Source: Wenzhouxiangella limi
GTDB taxonomy: Bacteria; Pseudomonadota; Gammaproteobacteria; Xanthomonadales; Wenzhouxiangellaceae
Direction: 5' to 3'
Length of the DNA stretch: 64,000 nt
NCBI RefSeq assembly: GCF_010499265.1
Contig: NZ_JAAGSC010000039.1
Coordinates: forward strand, 171,559-235,558
The position numbers were made by a program, and so were the translations under genes. The notes below the pieces were generated by a model. It saw only the letters and a program-made list of their open reading frames with translations. It had not been told where the DNA came from and did no database searches. Of this stretch, positions 10,475 through 40,268 are shown piece by piece. The first letter of the stretch is position 1. The number at the start of each line of letters is the position of its first letter.

Positions 10475-12220
10475 ATGCCGATTTGCAAGCTGCCCCCCCA
10501 CCTCGTCAACCAGATCGCGGCCGGCGAGGTCGTTGAACGCCCCGCATCGGTGGTCAAGGAACTGCTGGAAAACAGCCTTGATGCCGGTGCCGGTCGTATC
10601 CGGATCGATGTCGACGAAGGCGGTATTCGCCGGATGCGGATCAGCGATGATGGCTGCGGCATCGCCGCCGAGCAACTGGCGCTGGCGCTGGACCCGCACG
10701 CAACCAGCAAGATTGCCTCGCTGTCGGATCTCGAAGCGGTGGCCACGCTGGGGTTTCGTGGCGAGGCGCTGGCTTCCATCGCCTCGGTCGCCCGACTGAC
10801 CCTGGCCTCGCGCACCCCCGAGGCTGCAGAAGGCAGCGAGGTTCGGGCCGAGAATGGGCAACTGTCGTCGCGCCAGCCGCGCGGCATGCCGCCGGGCACC
10901 ATCGTCGATGTGGAAGACCTGTTTTTCAACACGCCGGCGCGGCGCAAGTTCGTGCGCACCGAGCGCACGGAGTTCGGTCATATCGATGATCTGGTTCGAC
11001 GGCTGGCGCTGGCGCGTCCGGCGACAGCCTTCGAGCTGGTTCACAACGGCCGCGCGGTTCGCAGGCTGGTCGCCGCGACCGATGAGCGTTCGCGCCAGCG
11101 GCGCGTCGGTGATGTCTGCGGACAGGCATTCGTCGACCAGGCGCTCTACCTGGAAAACCGCCACGAGGGCCTGGCCCTGGAGGGCTATATCGCCCGGCCC
11201 AGTTTTTCCCGCAGTCAGGCTGATCTGCAGTTCTTCTTCGTCAACGGCCGGCTGGTTCGCGACCGCCTGATTGCGCACGCGGTTCGTCAGGCCTACCAGG
11301 ACGTGCTCTTTCACGGTCGTCACCCGGCGTTCGTCCTCCATCTGACCATCGATCCGGCGCGCGTGGACGTCAACGTGCACCCGCAAAAAACCGAGGTGCG
11401 GTTCCGTGATTCCCGACAGGTGCACGGTTTCCTGTTCTCCACGCTTCACCGCGCGCTGGCCGAGACCCGTCCGACGGCTGACCGGAGCGCGCCGGCGGCC
11501 GCGCCCGCCGTGTCCGGAGCGACCTTCCGGCCCGCGCAAGGCGGGCTTGGTCTGGGGGTTGCCGAATCCGTGGCGCGCTACGCCGGGCTGGCCGGCGCCA
11601 GCGCTCATGCAGGAACGCAGGACCCGGAAGCGGATACACCGCCGCTGGGCTTTGCCGTGGCCCAGATCCACGGCGTCTTCGTGCTGGCCGAAAATGCCGC
11701 AGGGCTGGTGATCGTCGACATGCATGCCGCGCATGAGCGAATCGTCTACGAGCGCCTCAAGCAATCCTGGTCCGAACAGCGGGTCAAGGCGCAGCACCTC
11801 CTGGTGCCCGAGCGGGTCATGGTCAGCGAACGCGAGGCGCTGGCCCTGGAAAAGCGCGTCGGCGAGCTGAATCGCCTCGGTTTCGAGCTCGAGCTGGCCG
11901 GACCGGATTCGGTGACGATCCGGGCGGTTCCGGCCCTGTTGGCCGGCAGCGACTGCATCCAGCTGGTCCGCGACGTGCTCGCCGACTTGGTCGAGATGGG
12001 CCGCAGCGAGCGGGTCGCCGAGTTGATCGACGATCTCCTCTCGACCATGGCCTGCCACGGTTCGGTGCGCGCCAACCGGCGCCTGAATCCCGACGAAATG
12101 AACGCCTTGCTGCGCGACATGGAAAGAACCGAACGCAGCGATCAATGCAATCATGGCCGGCCGACCTGGGTGCAGCTCGACATGAAGTCCCTGGACCAGC
12201 TGTTCCTGCGTGGCCAGTAA
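10475..12220 (+). CDS. mutL: DNA mismatch repair protein MutL
   Basis: Links MutS mismatch recognition to strand removal. The 581 aa protein has the GHKL ATPase N-terminus ([35 protein letters not shown]), a variable linker (about 330-385) and a C-terminal dimerisation domain. The C-terminus carries [12 protein letters not shown], matching the endonuclease motif DQHA(X)2E(X)4E with Met for Gln, plus [12 protein letters not shown] and CNHGRP, the other metal-site motifs. This is the nicking type of MutL, unlike the E. coli protein that depends on MutH. Its end overlaps the miaA start by 11 bp. Confidence 0.96.
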
Positions 12221-33853: not shown

Positions 33854-33975
33854 GCCAGCCATCCCGACCGGATGCTGACGAAGCGACAGACGCGCTTCGG
33901 GCACGAACATCAACGTCGGAAACGGGCGGGTTCCGTAGAATGCAGGACAGACAGGATAACTTTCAGGCAAACACC

Positions 33976-35139
33976 ATGCGCAAGCTCAATTCCACCGATC
34001 TGTTCGATATCGACGAGCAGCTGACCGACGAAGAAAGAATGATTCGCGACAGCGTCGCTCGCTTTGTCGATGACAAGGCCCTGCCGCTGATGGCCGAATG
34101 TTTCGACGAGGGTCGTTTCCCGGCCGAGCTGGTGCCGGACATAGCCGAGATGGGCCTGCTCGGTTCCAGCCTGGAGGGTTATGGCTGCGCCGGACTGAAC
34201 GCGGTCAGCTACGGTCTGATCTGCCAGGAACTCGAGCGCGGAGACTCCGGCCTGCGCAGCTTCGTGTCGGTCCAGTCCTCGCTGTGCATGTACCCGATCC
34301 ATGCCTTCGGTTCTGAAGAGCAGAAGCAGCGCTGGCTGCCCGACATGGCCGCCGGCAAGGTCATCGGCTGTTTCGGTCTGACTGAGCCTCACGGCGGCTC
34401 CGATCCCTCCAACATGAAGACCCACGCCCGGCGCGACGGCGACGACTGGGTGCTCAACGGCGCCAAGATGTGGATCACCAACGGTAATCTTGCGCAGATC
34501 GCCATCGTCTGGGCGCGCACTGAAGACGGTATCCAGGGCTTCATTGTCGAGACCGACAGCCCCGGTTTCGAGGCGCGCGAGGTCAAGGCCAAGATGTCGT
34601 TGCGCGCCTCGGTTACTTCCGAGTTGTATCTGGACAACGTCCGCGTGCCCGAGGGCAATCGCCTTCCCGGGGTGAAAGGGCTGAAAGGTCCGCTGTCCTG
34701 TCTCAGCCAGGCGCGCTACGGCATTACCTGGGGCCCGATCGGTTCGGCCATCGCCTGCCTGAGCGAAGCACTGACCTACACCGCTGATCGCGAGCTGTTT
34801 GGCCGGCCGCTTGCGGCCAACCAGGCCGTTCAGATCCGCCTGGCCGATATGGCGCTGCGCATTACCCAGGCCCAGCTGATGGCGCTGCGCCTGGGCCGTC
34901 TCAAGGACGAGGGCAGGGTTCATCCGACCCAGATCTCGATGGCCAAGTGGAACAACGTGCGCATGGCGCTGGACATCGCCCGGGACTGCCGCGACCTGCT
35001 GGGTGGCTCGGGGATCACGCTGGAGTACGTGGCGATCCGCCACATGCTCAACCTCGAGTCGGTGATTACGTATGAAGGCACCGAAACCGTGCACCAGCTG
35101 GTGGTAGGGCGGGAGTTGACCGGCTTGAGCGCATTTTAG
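33976..35139 (+). CDS. gcdH: glutaryl-CoA dehydrogenase
   Basis: FAD acyl-CoA dehydrogenase that oxidises and decarboxylates glutaryl-CoA to crotonyl-CoA in lysine/tryptophan degradation. The 387 aa product begins MRKLNSTDLFD at ATG 33976. Signatures separating GcdH from other family members are SSLEGYGCAGLNAVSYGL, FGLTEPHGGSDPSNM, SQARYGITWGPIGSA (substrate carboxylate arginine) and TYEGTETVHQLVVGRELTG with the catalytic Glu. The gene diverges from the cytochromes and is followed by a hairpin-containing gap. Confidence 0.94.
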   Translation: MRKLNSTDLFDIDEQLTDEERMIRDSVARFVDDKALPLMAECFDEGRFPAELVPDIAEMGLLGSSLEGYGCAGLNAVSYGLICQELERGDSGLRSFVSVQSSLCMYPIHAFGSEEQKQRWLPDMAAGKVIGCFGLTEPHGGSDPSNMKTHARRDGDDWVLNGAKMWITNGNLAQIAIVWARTEDGIQGFIVETDSPGFEAREVKAKMSLRASVTSELYLDNVRVPEGNRLPGVKGLKGPLSCLSQARYGITWGPIGSAIACLSEALTYTADRELFGRPLAANQAVQIRLADMALRITQAQLMALRLGRLKDEGRVHPTQISMAKWNNVRMALDIARDCRDLLGGSGITLEYVAIRHMLNLESVITYEGTETVHQLVVGRELTGLSAF

Positions 35140-35243: not shown

Positions 35244-37487
35244 ATGACCCAGTCCGCCGCCCGACGTGTCAATCGTGCCGAAGTCGTCGACGAAGCGTTT
35301 CTGAGGCACCTGAGCGCGCTTGAGCAGGGGCGTTCGACGGCCAGCGACGGCGGCTCCATTGCGTCTGCCGATCTGCTTGAACTGTTCGACAGCCAGATGG
35401 TCTCGCGCCAGCTCGACCTGATGGCGCGGGTCAAGCGCGCCGAGAACAAGGTGTTCTACACCATCGGCTCGAGCGGTCACGAGGGCAATGCGCTGGTTGG
35501 AAGGCTGACCCGGCATACCGACCCGGCGTTCCTCCACTACCGTTCCGGGGCTTTCATGGCCGAACGCTACCGCAACCTGCCCGATCGGGATTTCGTCGCC
35601 GATACCTGCCTGTCGTTTGCCGCTTCAACCCGGGATCCGGCCTCTGGGGGACGGCACAAGGTCTGGGGGAGTCAGCCGCTCTGGGTGCTGCCGCAGACTT
35701 CGACCATCGCCTCGCACCTGCCCAAGGCGGTGGGTACGGCGCTGGCGCTGGCCCGGGGGGCGCGCGACGGCCACGACCTGCCGGTTCCGCCCGACAGTAT
35801 CGTGGTGTGCAGTTTCGGTGACGCCAGCCTCAATCATGCCGCCGCCCAGGCCGCCTTCAATGCCTGTGCCTGGTCGCGGCATCAGAACTTACCGGTGCCG
35901 ATTTTGTTCGTGTGCGAGGACAACGGGCTGGGGATCTCGGTGCCCAGCCCCCGCAACTGGGTCCACGACAGCATGGCGCGGCGCCATGGGCTGACCTATC
36001 GCCGCGCCAGCGGACTGGACCTGGCCGAAGGCTATCAACCGGTCAGCGAGGCGATCGCTCACTGCCGTGAACGCCGGACCCCGGTTTTCCTGCACCTGGA
36101 TGTCACCCGTCTGATGGGCCACGCCGGGACCGATTTCGAGATCGACTACCGTTCGCCGGAGGATCTGGCCGCCGCGGAGGCGCGCGATCCGCTGCTGCGC
36201 TCGGCCGAGCGGGTAGTGGTCCGGGGCCTGATGCAGCCCGAGCAGATTCGCAGGCGCTACGAGCAGCTGCGGCAGCGATGCCTGGAAGCGGCCGACCGGG
36301 CTGATCAAACTCCGCGCCTGGCCAGCTTCGGGGAAGTGGTCGGACCGCTGGCGCCGGTTTCGACCGCGGCCGTGATGCAGGAAGCCCGGCGCAGCCCGGC
36401 GGCGGACGCGCGTGCTGAATGTTTCGGCGGCCCGGATCGCTTGCCCGAAGCCCAGGAACCGCGCCACCTGGCCATTCAGATCAATCGGGCGCTGACCGAC
36501 CTGATGTTGAAGATTCCCGAAGCCCTGGTGTTCGGCGAGGACGTGGCGCGCAAGGGTGGCGTTTACACCGTGACCAGGGGCCTGTGGTCCCGCTTCGGAC
36601 AGCGTCGAGTCTTCAATACGCTGCTCGACGAAACCACGATTCTGGGTCTGGCCCAGGGCTACGCCATGATGGGCTATCTGCCGATCCCGGAAATCCAGTA
36701 CCTGGCCTATTTTCACAACGCCTGCGATCAGATTCGCGGCGAGGCCTGCTCGCTGCAGTTCTTTTCCAACGATCAATTCCGCAATCCCATGGTGCTGCGG
36801 ATCGCCGGTCTGGGCTACCAGCGCGGCTTCGGCGGCCACTTCCACAACGACAACTCCATCGCCGCCCTGCGCGACATCCCGGGTCTGGTCATCGGTTGCC
36901 CGGCGCGCGGCGATGATGCGGCAATGATGCTGAGAACCATGGCCGCGATGGCGCGGGTGGACGGCCGCGTGTGCGCGCTGATCGAGCCGATCGCGCTGTA
37001 CATGACCAAGGATCTGCACGAGCCCGATGATGGCGGCTGGCTGTTTCCCTATCCGGCCCCGGAGCAGTCGCTCGAGCCGTTCAGGCCGCGTGTTTATCAC
37101 GAGCAGGCCGCGGATCTGCTGATCGTCACCTACGGCAACGGTGTACCCATGGCCCTGCGCTGTGCCGCTCGCATGCGGGCACGGGGCATCTCGGTTCGGG
37201 TGCTGGACCTGCGCTGGCTCAAGCCGCTGGATCTGGCGGCGGTAGCGCGTCACGGGAGCGATTGCGCAGCGATCGTGGTGTTCGACGAAGGCCGTCCCGA
37301 TGGCGGGGTCGGTGAAGCCGTTGTCACCGGCCTGGTTGAGGCCGGCCTGGGCGGCAAGCCCGTCCGGCGGGTGACCGGGCGCGATTGCTATATCCCGCTT
37401 GGGGATGCAGCGCGGCTGGTGCTGGCCTCCGAAGAGCAGCTCGATCAGGCTGCGCAGGCGCTCCTGACCAGACCGCGGGAGCTCTGA
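35244..37487 (+). CDS. fused alpha-beta thiamine-diphosphate 2-oxo acid dehydrogenase E1
   Basis: A 747 aa fusion of E1-alpha (about 45-340) and E1-beta (about 400-745) of the branched-chain/pyruvate/acetoin dehydrogenase type. The alpha half has the ThDP site GDASLNHAAAQAA with EDNGLGIS about 28 residues later. The beta half has VFGEDVARKGGVYTVT, IPEIQYLAYFHNACDQI and GFGGHFHNDNS. Such enzymes decarboxylate 2-oxo acids and reductively acylate an E2 lipoyl domain; no E2 or E3 gene lies in the window. The bicarbonate-permease gene starts 3 bp downstream, so the two are almost surely cotranscribed. Substrate (2-oxoisovalerate, pyruvate or other) is not determinable. Confidence 0.87.
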   Translation: MTQSAARRVNRAEVVDEAFLRHLSALEQGRSTASDGGSIASADLLELFDSQMVSRQLDLMARVKRAENKVFYTIGSSGHEGNALVGRLTRHTDPAFLHYRSGAFMAERYRNLPDRDFVADTCLSFAASTRDPASGGRHKVWGSQPLWVLPQTSTIASHLPKAVGTALALARGARDGHDLPVPPDSIVVCSFGDASLNHAAAQAAFNACAWSRHQNLPVPILFVCEDNGLGISVPSPRNWVHDSMARRHGLTYRRASGLDLAEGYQPVSEAIAHCRERRTPVFLHLDVTRLMGHAGTDFEIDYRSPEDLAAAEARDPLLRSAERVVVRGLMQPEQIRRRYEQLRQRCLEAADRADQTPRLASFGEVVGPLAPVSTAAVMQEARRSPAADARAECFGGPDRLPEAQEPRHLAIQINRALTDLMLKIPEALVFGEDVARKGGVYTVTRGLWSRFGQRRVFNTLLDETTILGLAQGYAMMGYLPIPEIQYLAYFHNACDQIRGEACSLQFFSNDQFRNPMVLRIAGLGYQRGFGGHFHNDNSIAALRDIPGLVIGCPARGDDAAMMLRTMAAMARVDGRVCALIEPIALYMTKDLHEPDDGGWLFPYPAPEQSLEPFRPRVYHEQAADLLIVTYGNGVPMALRCAARMRARGISVRVLDLRWLKPLDLAAVARHGSDCAAIVVFDEGRPDGGVGEAVVTGLVEAGLGGKPVRRVTGRDCYIPLGDAARLVLASEEQLDQAAQALLTRPREL

Positions 37488-37490
37488 TTC

Positions 37491-38459
37491 GTGCTGGAAC
37501 TGGCGGTCCAGAACCTGCTTTCGCCGATCGTCCTGAGTTTCGTGCTCGGCCTGGTCGCTGCCGGCTTGCGCTCTGATCTGAGCGTGCCCGAGGCGGTGGC
37601 CAAGGGTCTTTCGATCTACCTGCTGTTTGCCATCGGTTACAAGGGCGGGGTCGAAGTGGCGGCGGCCGGGCTCGACTGGCGCCTGGCCCTGGGCCTGCTC
37701 GCCGGCGCGGGGCTTTCGGCCATCCTGCCGCTGATCGCCTACGGTCTGTTGCGCGCGATGAGCCGCCTGTCGAGCGTGGATGCCGCCGCGGTGGCCGGCC
37801 ACTACGGCTCCATCTCCATCGTCACCTTTGTTGCTGCCGGTGCACTGCTGCAGTCGCGCGGTGTGGCATACGAGGGCTGGCTGGTGGCGGTGGCCGCGAC
37901 CATGGAGGCGCCGGCCATTCTGACCGCGCTGTGGCTGGCGCAGCGCAATGCCAGCGCGCGCTCGGCCGCGGGCGTGCCGTGGCGCGAAGTCATTCTCAAC
38001 GGCTCTATCGTTTTGCTGATCGGCGCCTTCCTGATCGGTTGGGCGACCGGGCCGGCCGGCATGGCCGAGGTCGAGGGTTTCCTGGTGGCGCCGTTCAAGG
38101 GCGTGCTGTGCCTGTTCCTGCTCGACATGGGGCTGGTGGCCGGGCGCAATCTCGCGCGCAGCCGCAGCGCGCTGACGGTCGGCGTTGTGCTGTTCGGACT
38201 ACTGATGCCGCTGGTTGGGGCGGTGACCGGACTGGCAACGGCCTGGGCGCTGGGTCTTTCGGTCGGCGGTATGGCGATCCTGGCGACGCTGGCGGCTTCG
38301 GCTTCCTACATCGCGGTGCCGGCGGCCATGCGCGTAGCCCTGCCGGAAGCCAACCCGGCGATCTACCTGTCGCTGTCGCTGGGCGTGACTTTTCCGTTCA
38401 ATCTCGCCGTTGGCATTACCCTGTATCTGGCGGCAGCCACCTGGCTGTCCGGAGGCTGA
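37491..38459 (+). CDS. SbtA-like sodium-dependent bicarbonate permease
   Basis: Multi-pass membrane protein of 322 aa, about ten helices, of the sodium-dependent bicarbonate transporter family (DUF897). It matches the family start NLLSPIVLSFVLGLVAAGLR followed by SDLSVPEAVAKGLSIYLLFAIGYKGG (quoted in two parts: SDLSVPEAVAKGLSIYLL, FAIGYKGGVE), and later GHYGSISIVTF and a mirrored second half (LFLLDMGLVAGRN). GTG 37491 lies 3 bp after the E1 stop; an SbtB/PII-like gene follows 2 bp downstream. Cyanobacterial SbtA imports bicarbonate; activity in proteobacteria is less studied. Confidence 0.85.
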   Translation: MLELAVQNLLSPIVLSFVLGLVAAGLRSDLSVPEAVAKGLSIYLLFAIGYKGGVEVAAAGLDWRLALGLLAGAGLSAILPLIAYGLLRAMSRLSSVDAAAVAGHYGSISIVTFVAAGALLQSRGVAYEGWLVAVAATMEAPAILTALWLAQRNASARSAAGVPWREVILNGSIVLLIGAFLIGWATGPAGMAEVEGFLVAPFKGVLCLFLLDMGLVAGRNLARSRSALTVGVVLFGLLMPLVGAVTGLATAWALGLSVGGMAILATLAASASYIAVPAAMRVALPEANPAIYLSLSLGVTFPFNLAVGITLYLAAATWLSGG

Positions 38460-38461
38460 GC

Positions 38462-38773
38462 ATGCAGACCCATACCGCAACCCGCATCGAAATCATCATC
38501 GAAAGTCCCGCCTTGCGGGCACTGACGCGCGAGCTGGACCGGGCGGCGGTCAAGGGTTATACGGTGCTGCCGGTCCTGGGCGGGGAGGGCAGGTCAGGGC
38601 CGTGGACGGCTGCGGGGGAGGTCGGGTCGGCTGGCGGCATGGTGGCGGTGCTGACCATGGTGGCGCCGGAGCGCGCCGAAAGCGTCCTGGACTCGGTGTT
38701 TGAGGTCGTCAGCCGCCACATCGGCCTGGTGTCGGTCAGCGAGTGCCGGGTGGTTCGCCCCGAACGGGTGTGA
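38462..38773 (+). CDS. SbtB-like PII-family regulator
   Basis: A 103 aa protein with PII-like topology: TRIEIIIESPALRALTREL, then AAVKGYTVLPVLGGEGRSG (start of the T-loop) and MVAVLTMVAPERAESVLDSV. It lacks the Walker-like features and uridylylation tyrosine of GlnB and matches SbtB/CPII-type proteins encoded next to SbtA permeases, which sense adenine nucleotides (and bicarbonate in the CPII case). No C-terminal CxPxxxC extension is present. Probably gates the upstream permease. Its 3' end overlaps the convergent monooxygenase gene by 38 bp. Confidence 0.8.
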   Translation: MQTHTATRIEIIIESPALRALTRELDRAAVKGYTVLPVLGGEGRSGPWTAAGEVGSAGGMVAVLTMVAPERAESVLDSVFEVVSRHIGLVSVSECRVVRPERV

Positions 38774-40264
38774 CCCCGGATCCGGCTTCGGCCAGTTCGT
38801 AAGCCGCGGGGTCGAAGCGCCGGCAGTGCCAGCGGAAGGTCGAGGTAAAACGCGGCCACAGGGTGGCGTTGCGGCCGCTTCGGGGGTGCAGATACCAGCT
38901 GCCGCAGCCGCCGCGGTTCCAGACCGTGCGCGCCAGCCGCCGCTGCAGGTCCTCATTCCAGTCTCGCTGGGCTTGGTCACGGACTTCGATGCGCGTGCTG
39001 CGATGGCGTTGCATGAAGCTGAGCATGTCGATCAGGTAGCGAATCTGGCCCTCGATCATCAGCAGCACCGAGTTGTGGCCCAGGGCGGTGTTCGGGCCGA
39101 GCAGGGTGAAGAAGTTGGGGAAGCCGGCCACGGTGCTGCCCTTGTAGGCTTGCGGGCCATCGGCCCAAGCCTCGGCCAGGTCGCGGCCCTGGTGGCCGAT
39201 GATCAAGCCTGGGGGAACCGGGCTTGTGGCCTGGAACCCGGTACCCAGCACGATCAGGTCGGCCGGGCGACGCTGCCCGCTCCGGTCGATGATCGCGCGG
39301 CCTTCGAGGCGCTCGATGGGCTCGGTGACCAGTTCAACGTTGGCTGCGGCGACGGCCGGGTAGTAGTCGTTGGACATCAGCACCCGCTTGCAGCCCATGG
39401 CGTAGTCGGGCGTAAGCTGCTCGCGCAGCGCCGGGTCCGAGACCTGGCTTAGCAGATGGCGGCGGGCCTTGCGACGATGGAAAGCGGTCATCCGCGGCCA
39501 GCGGGCGAACGCCGGAAGCCGGCTTTCCAGCAGCAGGAACTGGCTGAGCCGCAGCGCCAGCCGGGCCGGCGCAAAGCGCCGGTAGAGGCGCTGTTTCCAG
39601 CCCGCGATGGCGCGATCCGGGCGGGGCAGGATCCACTGGGCGCTGCGCTGGTAGATGTCGACCGCACGGGCGTCGCGCTGAAGATGGGGAACGAACTGGA
39701 TGGCCGAGGCGCCGGTGCCGATGACCGCGACGCGTTGATCTTTCAGATTCAGCCCGTCGGGCCAGCGCTGGGAGTGGATGACCGGACCGTCGAAATCGGC
39801 AAGGCCTTCGATATCGGGCCAGGCCGGCCGCGACAGCCCGCCGATGGCCGAGACCAGCATCCGGCCGGCGAACACCCGTCCGTGCTGGTCGTGGACCCGC
39901 CAGGCGTGCTCGGATTCCTGCCAGCGGGCCTGCACGACCCGGGTATCGAGGTGGATGCGGGGCGCGATGCCGTGCCGGGTGACGAGATCTTCGAGGTACT
40001 GCTGGATTTCGGCGCGAGCGGCGAAGCGGCGCGACCAGTCGGCCTTGGGCGCAAACGACAGCGAGTAGAGATGCGACTGAACGTCGCAGGCGCAGCCCGG
40101 GTAGCGGTTGACCCACCAGGTCCCGCCCACGCCGGACTCGGCGTCGAGCACGACAAAGTCGTCGAAGCCCGCACGGCGCAGGCGGATCGCCAGGCCGATG
40201 CCGGCAAAGCCGGCGCCGATGATGACCAGGCCGGTCTTGACGACCTGGCTTGCGACCGGATCGG

Positions 40265-40268
<4 letters not shown>
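38736..40268 (-). CDS. flavin-dependent Baeyer-Villiger-type monooxygenase
   Basis: FAD/NADPH monooxygenase of 510 aa. It has the N-terminal FAD motif [30 protein letters not shown], the type I Baeyer-Villiger fingerprint FxGxxxHxxxWP ([13 protein letters not shown], about 166-178), the NADPH motif [11 protein letters not shown] and LGTGFQATS. Such enzymes insert oxygen beside carbonyl groups of ketones; the natural substrate is unknown. Its ATG overlaps the kbl stop by 4 bp, so it is translated with kbl, an unusual pairing. Confidence 0.9.

Follow-up and report, generated by a model that had tools for sequence, protein, structure and literature searches.

Wenzhouxiangella limi carries, within a stretch of 64,000 nucleotides that we analysed as a whole (the window; assembly GCF_010499265.1, contig NZ_JAAGSC010000039.1, positions 171,559 to 235,558 of the forward strand), a gene for a fused 2-oxo acid dehydrogenase E1 followed immediately by genes for an SbtA-family permease and a PII-like protein. 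Our results show that this row of genes is real and probably co-transcribed, and that it is a juxtaposition of two modules limited to one clade. We consider it probable that two independent modules were joined end to end, and that the permease and its PII protein, which is of the CPII type, form a PII-gated Na+/bicarbonate importer standing behind E1 in that clade. Read in this way, the data are explained without any use for co-transcription with E1.

The first module would be catabolic, pairing glutaryl-CoA dehydrogenase with the fused E1, a combination found repeatedly in the order. The second, an SbtA-family permease with a CPII-type PII protein, would belong to many proteobacteria, often in the company of a beta-carbonic anhydrase gene, and would have been placed behind E1 in one small clade of the genus by local rearrangement. 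For this second module we infer the substrate, the Na+ coupling, the gating and the physiological use. Most likely, the permease takes up bicarbonate together with Na+ by the elevator mechanism of SbtA, and is shut by a PII trimer whose T-loop enters it from the cytoplasmic face. Gating would follow adenine nucleotide and perhaps the bicarbonate level. The cell, in which no alpha- or beta-carbonic anhydrase was detected, would use the imported bicarbonate for ordinary carboxylases and for pH balance.

The gene row

The genes concerned, with positions counted within the window, are as follows.

33940 to 35139, + strand: acyl-CoA dehydrogenase of the glutaryl-CoA dehydrogenase family, whose gene recurs just upstream of E1 (best PDB match 2eba)
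35244 to 37487, + strand: fused E1 (alpha + beta) of a 2-oxo acid dehydrogenase, with no adjoining E2 gene (PF00676, PF02779 and PF02780)
37491 to 38459, + strand: SbtA-family permease, GTG start, 322 aa, 3 bp past E1 (PF05982, 368 bits)
38462 to 38773, + strand: CPII-type PII-like protein, 103 aa, 2 bp past the permease (PF00543, 53 bits)
38736 to 40268, - strand: flavin-monooxygenase-like gene, convergent, the far border of the SbtA-PII pair (open reading frame and Pfam)

E1, permease and PII genes are consecutive and all on the + strand, and the original prediction of three genes 3 and 2 bp apart was correct: the spacer is ttc between E1 and the permease, and gc between the permease and the PII gene. 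The GGAGG ahead of the PII start sits within the permease gene and the GGGAG ahead of the SbtA start within E1. Because of the tight spacing and of these stretches inside the preceding genes, the three genes are likely to be on one transcript. Tight gene spacing alone is no proof of a pathway, and the adjacency seen here is limited to one clade.

Distribution of the E1-SbtA adjacency

We surveyed 151 genomes of the order and 30 genomes of the genus, from assemblies of varying completeness; the window genome itself (G000) is 99.59% complete. Some E1 match is present in 147 of the 151 order genomes and an orthologue in 115 (46-100% identity, partial in G062), and SbtA is found in 33. E1 orthologue and SbtA occur together in 28 order genomes and are adjacent only in G000 and G124, so that SbtA is not beside E1 in 113 of the 115 genomes with an E1 orthologue. 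Within the genus, a fused E1 is carried by 28 of the 30 genomes (G139 and G163 have a split E1 match only, and in G153 the 3' end of E1 runs off the contig) and SbtA by 18, with adjacency in five (G000, G124, G152, G159 and G154). All five fall into a single clade of the E1 tree (support 0.999). In the SbtA tree the five E1-linked permeases form a clade (0.968), as do four permeases linked to a lyase gene (0.996), and both groups join (0.919).

The genes that adjoin E1, mapped from stop-to-stop frames picked by similarity, consist across the genus of a common block ahead of E1 and of differing genes behind it. In the window clade SbtA-PII comes next and then the monooxygenase (the G154 contig ends past PII). 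In G089 no SbtA separates E1, whose frame ends at 11270, from the convergent monooxygenase, whose frame starts at 11273 (L116), and in G037 the monooxygenase follows E1 after a gap of 1.7 kb. In another subgroup of the genus (G129, G119, G144, G094 and G151; loci L113, L114, L115, L121 and L122), the gene behind E1 belongs to a family that carries FHA and type VI secretion FHA C-terminal domains (Pfam run on the G119 member), and in G009, G099, G029, G051 and G079 to an isocitrate/isopropylmalate dehydrogenase-type family (Pfam, G009 member). Given these differing genes, SbtA-PII was either gained at, or lost from, the spot behind E1 in one lineage. A CPII-type SbtA-PII pair does occur elsewhere in G089, G119, G129 and G151 (L090-L093), where it lies directly behind an aromatic amino acid lyase gene.

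Relatives of the permease were sought more widely among genome contigs, the query being an alignment of ten CPII-type SbtA proteins. The best 80 of 472 stretches were kept, a choice biased to close relatives; they come mostly from Rhodobacterales and Roseibium, and also from Granulosicoccaceae, Ectothiorhodospiraceae, Wenzhouxiangella and others, and five of them (L139-L143) coincide with loci of G152, G089, G151, G119 and G159. The PII gene is directly behind the permease in 79 of the 80 and the contig of the 80th ends there. In the order and genus taken together, 33 of 41 SbtA loci were found to have a PII gene. E1 is near the permease in two of the 80, both of the window clade (G152 and G159), and was not seen in the stretch covered for the other 78. 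A general E1-SbtA-SbtB operon was thus ruled out by its rarity in the order (2/151), in the genus (5/30, one clade) and among the permease relatives (2/80). The proposal made originally from this gene row, that oxo-acid decarboxylation is linked to bicarbonate supply, is not supported by conservation, since the adjacency belongs to a single E1 clade. It had also been foreseen that the adjacency might be found only in this genome; this is not literally so, as five related genomes have it, but it is nearly so.

It is improbable, in our judgement, that the row is a true functional unit in which CO2 from E1 and glutaryl-CoA dehydrogenase is balanced by PII-controlled import or export of bicarbonate. 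Members of both enzyme families decarboxylate, and the 3 and 2 bp spacing, the ribosome-site-like stretches within the preceding genes and a gene order identical in five species of one clade are what such a unit would have. For the SbtA-family protein SO_3758 of Shewanella, moreover, the authors who describe it consider that it might act as an exporter (PMC12093963; here and below, papers given by PMC number, PMC8352866 apart, are cited from excerpts). Against a unit stand the two adjacencies among 28 order genomes that have both genes, the similar pairs found behind a lyase gene in four genomes of the same genus, and the 78 permease relatives that show no E1.

The glutaryl-CoA dehydrogenase and E1 pair

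The fused E1 is a protein of 747 aa and was correctly recognized as such from the start, as the E1 alpha (PF00676), pyrimidine-binding (PF02779) and C-terminal (PF02780) domains are all on a single chain, and its beta-subunit part matches PDB 1um9 (E 1.5e-35). It shares these three domains with E1 of the branched-chain/pyruvate type, but differs in its fused alpha and beta parts, in the lack of an adjoining E2 gene and in its glutaryl-CoA dehydrogenase partner. The latter, encoded ahead of E1, is assigned to its family by PDB 2eba, a putative glutaryl-CoA dehydrogenase (1e-149), and also by 3sf6, 3swo and 1siq. Of 45 E1 loci examined, 28 have its gene directly upstream and in the same orientation as E1, including loci in G005, G116 and G120 from other families of the order; it was not found within 1.5 kb upstream of E1 in 12 loci, and the remaining five (L003, L061, L068, L074 and L075) end at a contig border upstream. 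Glutaryl-CoA dehydrogenase and fused E1 are therefore a recurrent gene pair in the order.

The operon holds no E2 gene for the fused E1, and the three PF00198 (E2) matches of the genome sit on other contigs (C23:461480, C32:270254 and C23:82488), where they adjoin SucA, AceE and a split E1. The genome carries AceE-AceF-Lpd, SucA-SucB and a separate split E1 with its E2, and since its E2 genes belong to these sets the fused E1 has none of its own at hand. We suggest that it may act on 2-oxoadipate, using an E2 from another complex and feeding glutaryl-CoA to its neighbour, a substrate that would fit the pairing with glutaryl-CoA dehydrogenase; a literature search on this gave no result. A branched-chain complex was also considered for the fused E1, but the genome has the separate split E1 with its E2.

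Fold and anion site of the permease

The identification of the permease as SbtA-like, made originally from its sequence, was confirmed both by profile and by predicted fold. The protein scores 368 bits against PF05982 (cut-off 27), covering positions 1-307 of 308, and its AlphaFold2 model (pLDDT 90.5) has the SbtA fold of 5+5 inverted repeats with core and gate domains. The five best PDB matches of the model are all SbtA (7egl, 8zor, 7egk, 7cyf and 7cye), with TM scores (query) of 0.80-0.88, E values of 5e-14 to 6e-11 and 27-30% identity, and the next match is a bacterial bile acid transporter (4e-05).

In SbtA of Synechocystis (Slr1512), Ser114, Tyr140, Ser324 and Ser327 are the proposed bicarbonate ligands, and replacement of any of the four by alanine lowers transport to about 10-40% (PMC8352866, Liu et al. 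2021). The window permease aligns with Ser109, Ala135, Ser272 and Ala275 at these sites. It thus does not have the full four-ligand site, Tyr140 being replaced by Ala135 and Ser327 by Ala275. The equivalents of Ser114, Ser322 and Ser324 are present in all 52 aligned permeases, while Tyr140 is kept in two of the 52 and Ser327 likewise in two. Compared with Slr1512, the window permease also keeps the equivalents of Gly111 and Ala320, but has Tyr for Phe110 and Ser for Ala112. The predicted fold and half of the anion site are therefore kept, and the exact substrate is a prediction from sequence and model.

The pair resembles Slr1512-Slr1513 of Synechocystis in the Pfam family and fold of the permease and in the PII-like gene immediately downstream, and differs in a CPII-like partner that is without the C-terminal Cys pair and in a host with no carbon-fixing RuBisCO by PF00016. 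SbtA-family proteins are likewise found in the non-autotrophs Shewanella (SO_3758) and SAR11 (LD12/IIIa.3) (PMC12093963, PMC10030771). The window permease and SO_3758, whose substrate is termed putative (PMC12093963), have a Ser-Ala-Ser-Tyr-Ile-Ala stretch in common. The order also contains a second, cyanobacterial-like class of SbtA (L060 and L087) in which all four proposed bicarbonate ligands are present.

It could be argued, as the original proposal already allowed, that the permease moves another small anion, such as formate, a 2-oxo acid or another carboxylate, and that the name SbtA is misleading; this we regard as unlikely. The two alanines and the rarity of the replaced ligands among the aligned permeases would agree with another anion, as would the formate tolerance given by a mutation in Shewanella SO_3758 (PMC12093963) and neighbours that vary among species from a 2-oxo acid E1 to an aromatic amino acid lyase. 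The three invariant serines argue for bicarbonate, and PDB titles name bicarbonate as a ligand in structures of CPII, to which the PII protein is closest. A beta-carbonic anhydrase gene lies near the permease in 53 of the 80 relatives (35 upstream on the same strand, 17 downstream on the same strand and one divergent; three of these neighbours were checked by Pfam), and these neighbours tip the balance toward bicarbonate. What determines anion choice in the SbtA fold could be tested directly at the replaced ligands, and it is the SbtA-CPII pair, altered anion site included, that makes this gene row worth following.

A CPII-type PII partner

The original prediction of an SbtB/PII sensor was right in that the protein is PII-like (PF00543), but not as to SbtB, since CPII outscores the SbtB-type chains. 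A profile of 47 relatives gave 48.4 bits to CPII, at most 31.3 to SbtB-type chains (31.3 to 3dfe and 30.6 to 6mm2) and at most 18.8 to GlnB/GlnK; 3dfe is SbtB of Anabaena (PMC4275256). The 14 best PDB fold matches of the model (pLDDT 88) are all CPII chains, the first SbtB being at rank 15, and the ligands named in the CPII entry titles are ADP, AMP and bicarbonate. In its structural part, too, the earlier family assignment held for the permease, which falls within the SbtA fold family, and not for the PII protein. By sequence and predicted fold the latter is nearer CPII of Thiomonas intermedia than SbtB, so SbtB is not its best name.

CPII of Thiomonas intermedia K12 (5d4n, 5d4o) is the best match of the window protein in both sequence and fold, at an identity of about 28%. 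In Thiomonas CPII belongs with carboxysome genes; in the window genome no form I-III RuBisCO was found. The window protein ends ...CRVVRPERV and is without the C-terminal CGPxGC redox hairpin, which is conserved only in some SbtB. Model confidence is among the lowest in its T-loop region (about 41-60), which nevertheless contains the invariant residues G41, G43, W48 and M60, as expected if the T-loop contacts the permease. A profile of nine PII proteins from the other SbtA group of the order gave 105.7 to TTHA0516, at most 67.2 to SbtB-type chains and 24.7 to CPII, and the order therefore has two kinds of PII.

If bicarbonate is the substrate, PII control of inorganic-carbon uptake reaches well past the cyanobacterial carbon-concentrating mechanism, and the sensor in this wider control is CPII-like instead of SbtB. 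The varied gene orders of SbtA-PII and carbonic anhydrase point to a functional association, though many of the loci are related. Some of the 80 hosts, Rhodovulum and Ectothiorhodospiraceae among them, come from groups that include phototrophs, and the SbtA-PII pair is for this reason not a demonstrated trait of heterotrophs. Our literature search, judged mostly from titles and the beginnings of abstracts, found no description of an SbtA-CPII-carbonic anhydrase operon outside cyanobacteria; among the papers searched none dealt with CPII, and excerpts on SbtB did not mention it.

Carbonic anhydrase and RuBisCO

No match to beta-carbonic anhydrase (PF00484) was found in the window genome, and alpha-carbonic anhydrase (PF00194) had none in any of the 30 genus genomes, the window genome included. 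The window genome does have a gene for a YrdA-type protein of the gamma class, a putative carbonic anhydrase. Across the genus, beta-carbonic anhydrase is present in seven of the 30 genomes, with none among the nine that have a CPII-type SbtA and seven among the other 21 (Fisher p 0.07); four genomes have both SbtA and beta-carbonic anhydrase and nine have neither, several genomes being incomplete. In the order the enzyme is missing from 12 of 33 SbtA genomes and from 17 of 118 others (p 0.011, uncorrected for kinship). These distributions in genus and order are suggestive only.

Six cyanobacterial SbtA homologues rescue growth in air of an E. coli strain lacking carbonic anhydrase (PMC4275256), and in Staphylococcus the inorganic-carbon transporter MpsAB and carbonic anhydrase replace each other (PMC6689103). 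A minireview describes the inorganic-carbon toolkit as widespread in autotrophs and heterotrophs, though commonest in autotrophs, and SbtA and cytoplasmic carbonic anhydrase as tending to alternate in some archaea (PMC10880623). The MpsAB of Staphylococcus aureus is comparable to the window pair as an inorganic-carbon transporter of a non-autotroph that is able to replace carbonic anhydrase (PMC6689103).

A stronger form of the bicarbonate-import reading, whose likelihood overlaps with it, is that in this lineage the permease and PII protein have replaced beta-carbonic anhydrase as the source of bicarbonate, a role that MpsAB is able to fill in Staphylococcus. MpsAB is of a protein family different from SbtA. 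We hold this takeover to be possible but doubtful. The two uneven distributions just given favour it, and the precedents in which transporter and carbonic anhydrase are interchangeable (PMC6689103, PMC4275256) agree with it. The nine genus genomes with neither gene and the four with both do not, nor does the YrdA-type protein of the window genome, and elsewhere the pair accompanies beta-carbonic anhydrase (53/80), which is the opposite pattern. SbtA as a simple replacement of carbonic anhydrase is accordingly weakened by the nine of 30 genomes without both, by the YrdA-type gene and by a p value in the genus (0.07) that is not significant.

More elaborate, and in our view quite unlikely, is a distinct proteobacterial bicarbonate system, in which a CPII-type PII protein would gate a permease of the SbtA class whose anion site has been remodelled, commonly with a beta-carbonic anhydrase gene alongside. 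In the Wenzhouxiangella-type clade without detected beta-carbonic anhydrase, the pair would have replaced the enzyme and come under a CO2-releasing catabolic operon, which would tune import to the decarboxylation flux.

Several observations weigh against our preferred reading of two joined modules with a bicarbonate importer as the second. Two of the four proposed bicarbonate side-chain ligands are alanine in the window permease. Most loci with a carbonic anhydrase neighbour belong to Rhodobacterales and Roseibium that are related to one another, and do not count as independent events; 27 of the 80 loci are without such a neighbour. Given the YrdA-type gene, the cell may keep a carbonic anhydrase activity, and the nine genus genomes that have neither SbtA nor beta-carbonic anhydrase show that a genome without the enzyme can also do without SbtA. 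The adjacency also persists although the E1 proteins of the clade are only 77-79% identical to that of the window, which could reflect selection.

Carbon fixation through a form I-III RuBisCO was rejected for the window genome, because the sole match to the RuBisCO large chain (PF00016) is an enolase-like RuBisCO-like protein; carboxysome shell proteins were not searched genome-wide. This RuBisCO-like protein (G000:C23:76913-77647; L133:6420-8708) lies at the end of a 763-residue open frame, is related to 2,3-diketo-5-methylthiopentyl-1-phosphate enolase and scores under the NCBIfam cut-offs of RuBisCO models.

Other neighbouring genes

The flavin-monooxygenase-like gene that closes the row matches the Pfam families FMO-like (31 bits) and Pyr_redox_3 (61 bits) over 38764-40268. 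At the lyase-linked loci an amidohydrolase follows in three of the four, and a SulP-family transporter and a Usp-domain protein are near the pair in G089 (lyase, amidohydrolase, SulP and Usp families were checked by Pfam on one member each). In G042, of the same order, a beta-carbonic anhydrase gene is divergent from a CPII-type SbtA. L215 has two acyl-CoA-dehydrogenase-like frames near SbtA (230 and 163 bits to that of the window) and no E1.

Sua5 (threonylcarbamoyl-AMP synthase) is a bicarbonate-using enzyme. In seven of 20 SbtA regions (L095, L096 and L099-L103), an SbtA of the group with SbtB-like PII is followed by a gene of the Sua5 family, checked by Pfam in two of the seven. Contig names such as T3Sed10 and CSSed presumably denote soda lakes. 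A Wenzhouxiangella from soda lakes has been described (PMC7691419).

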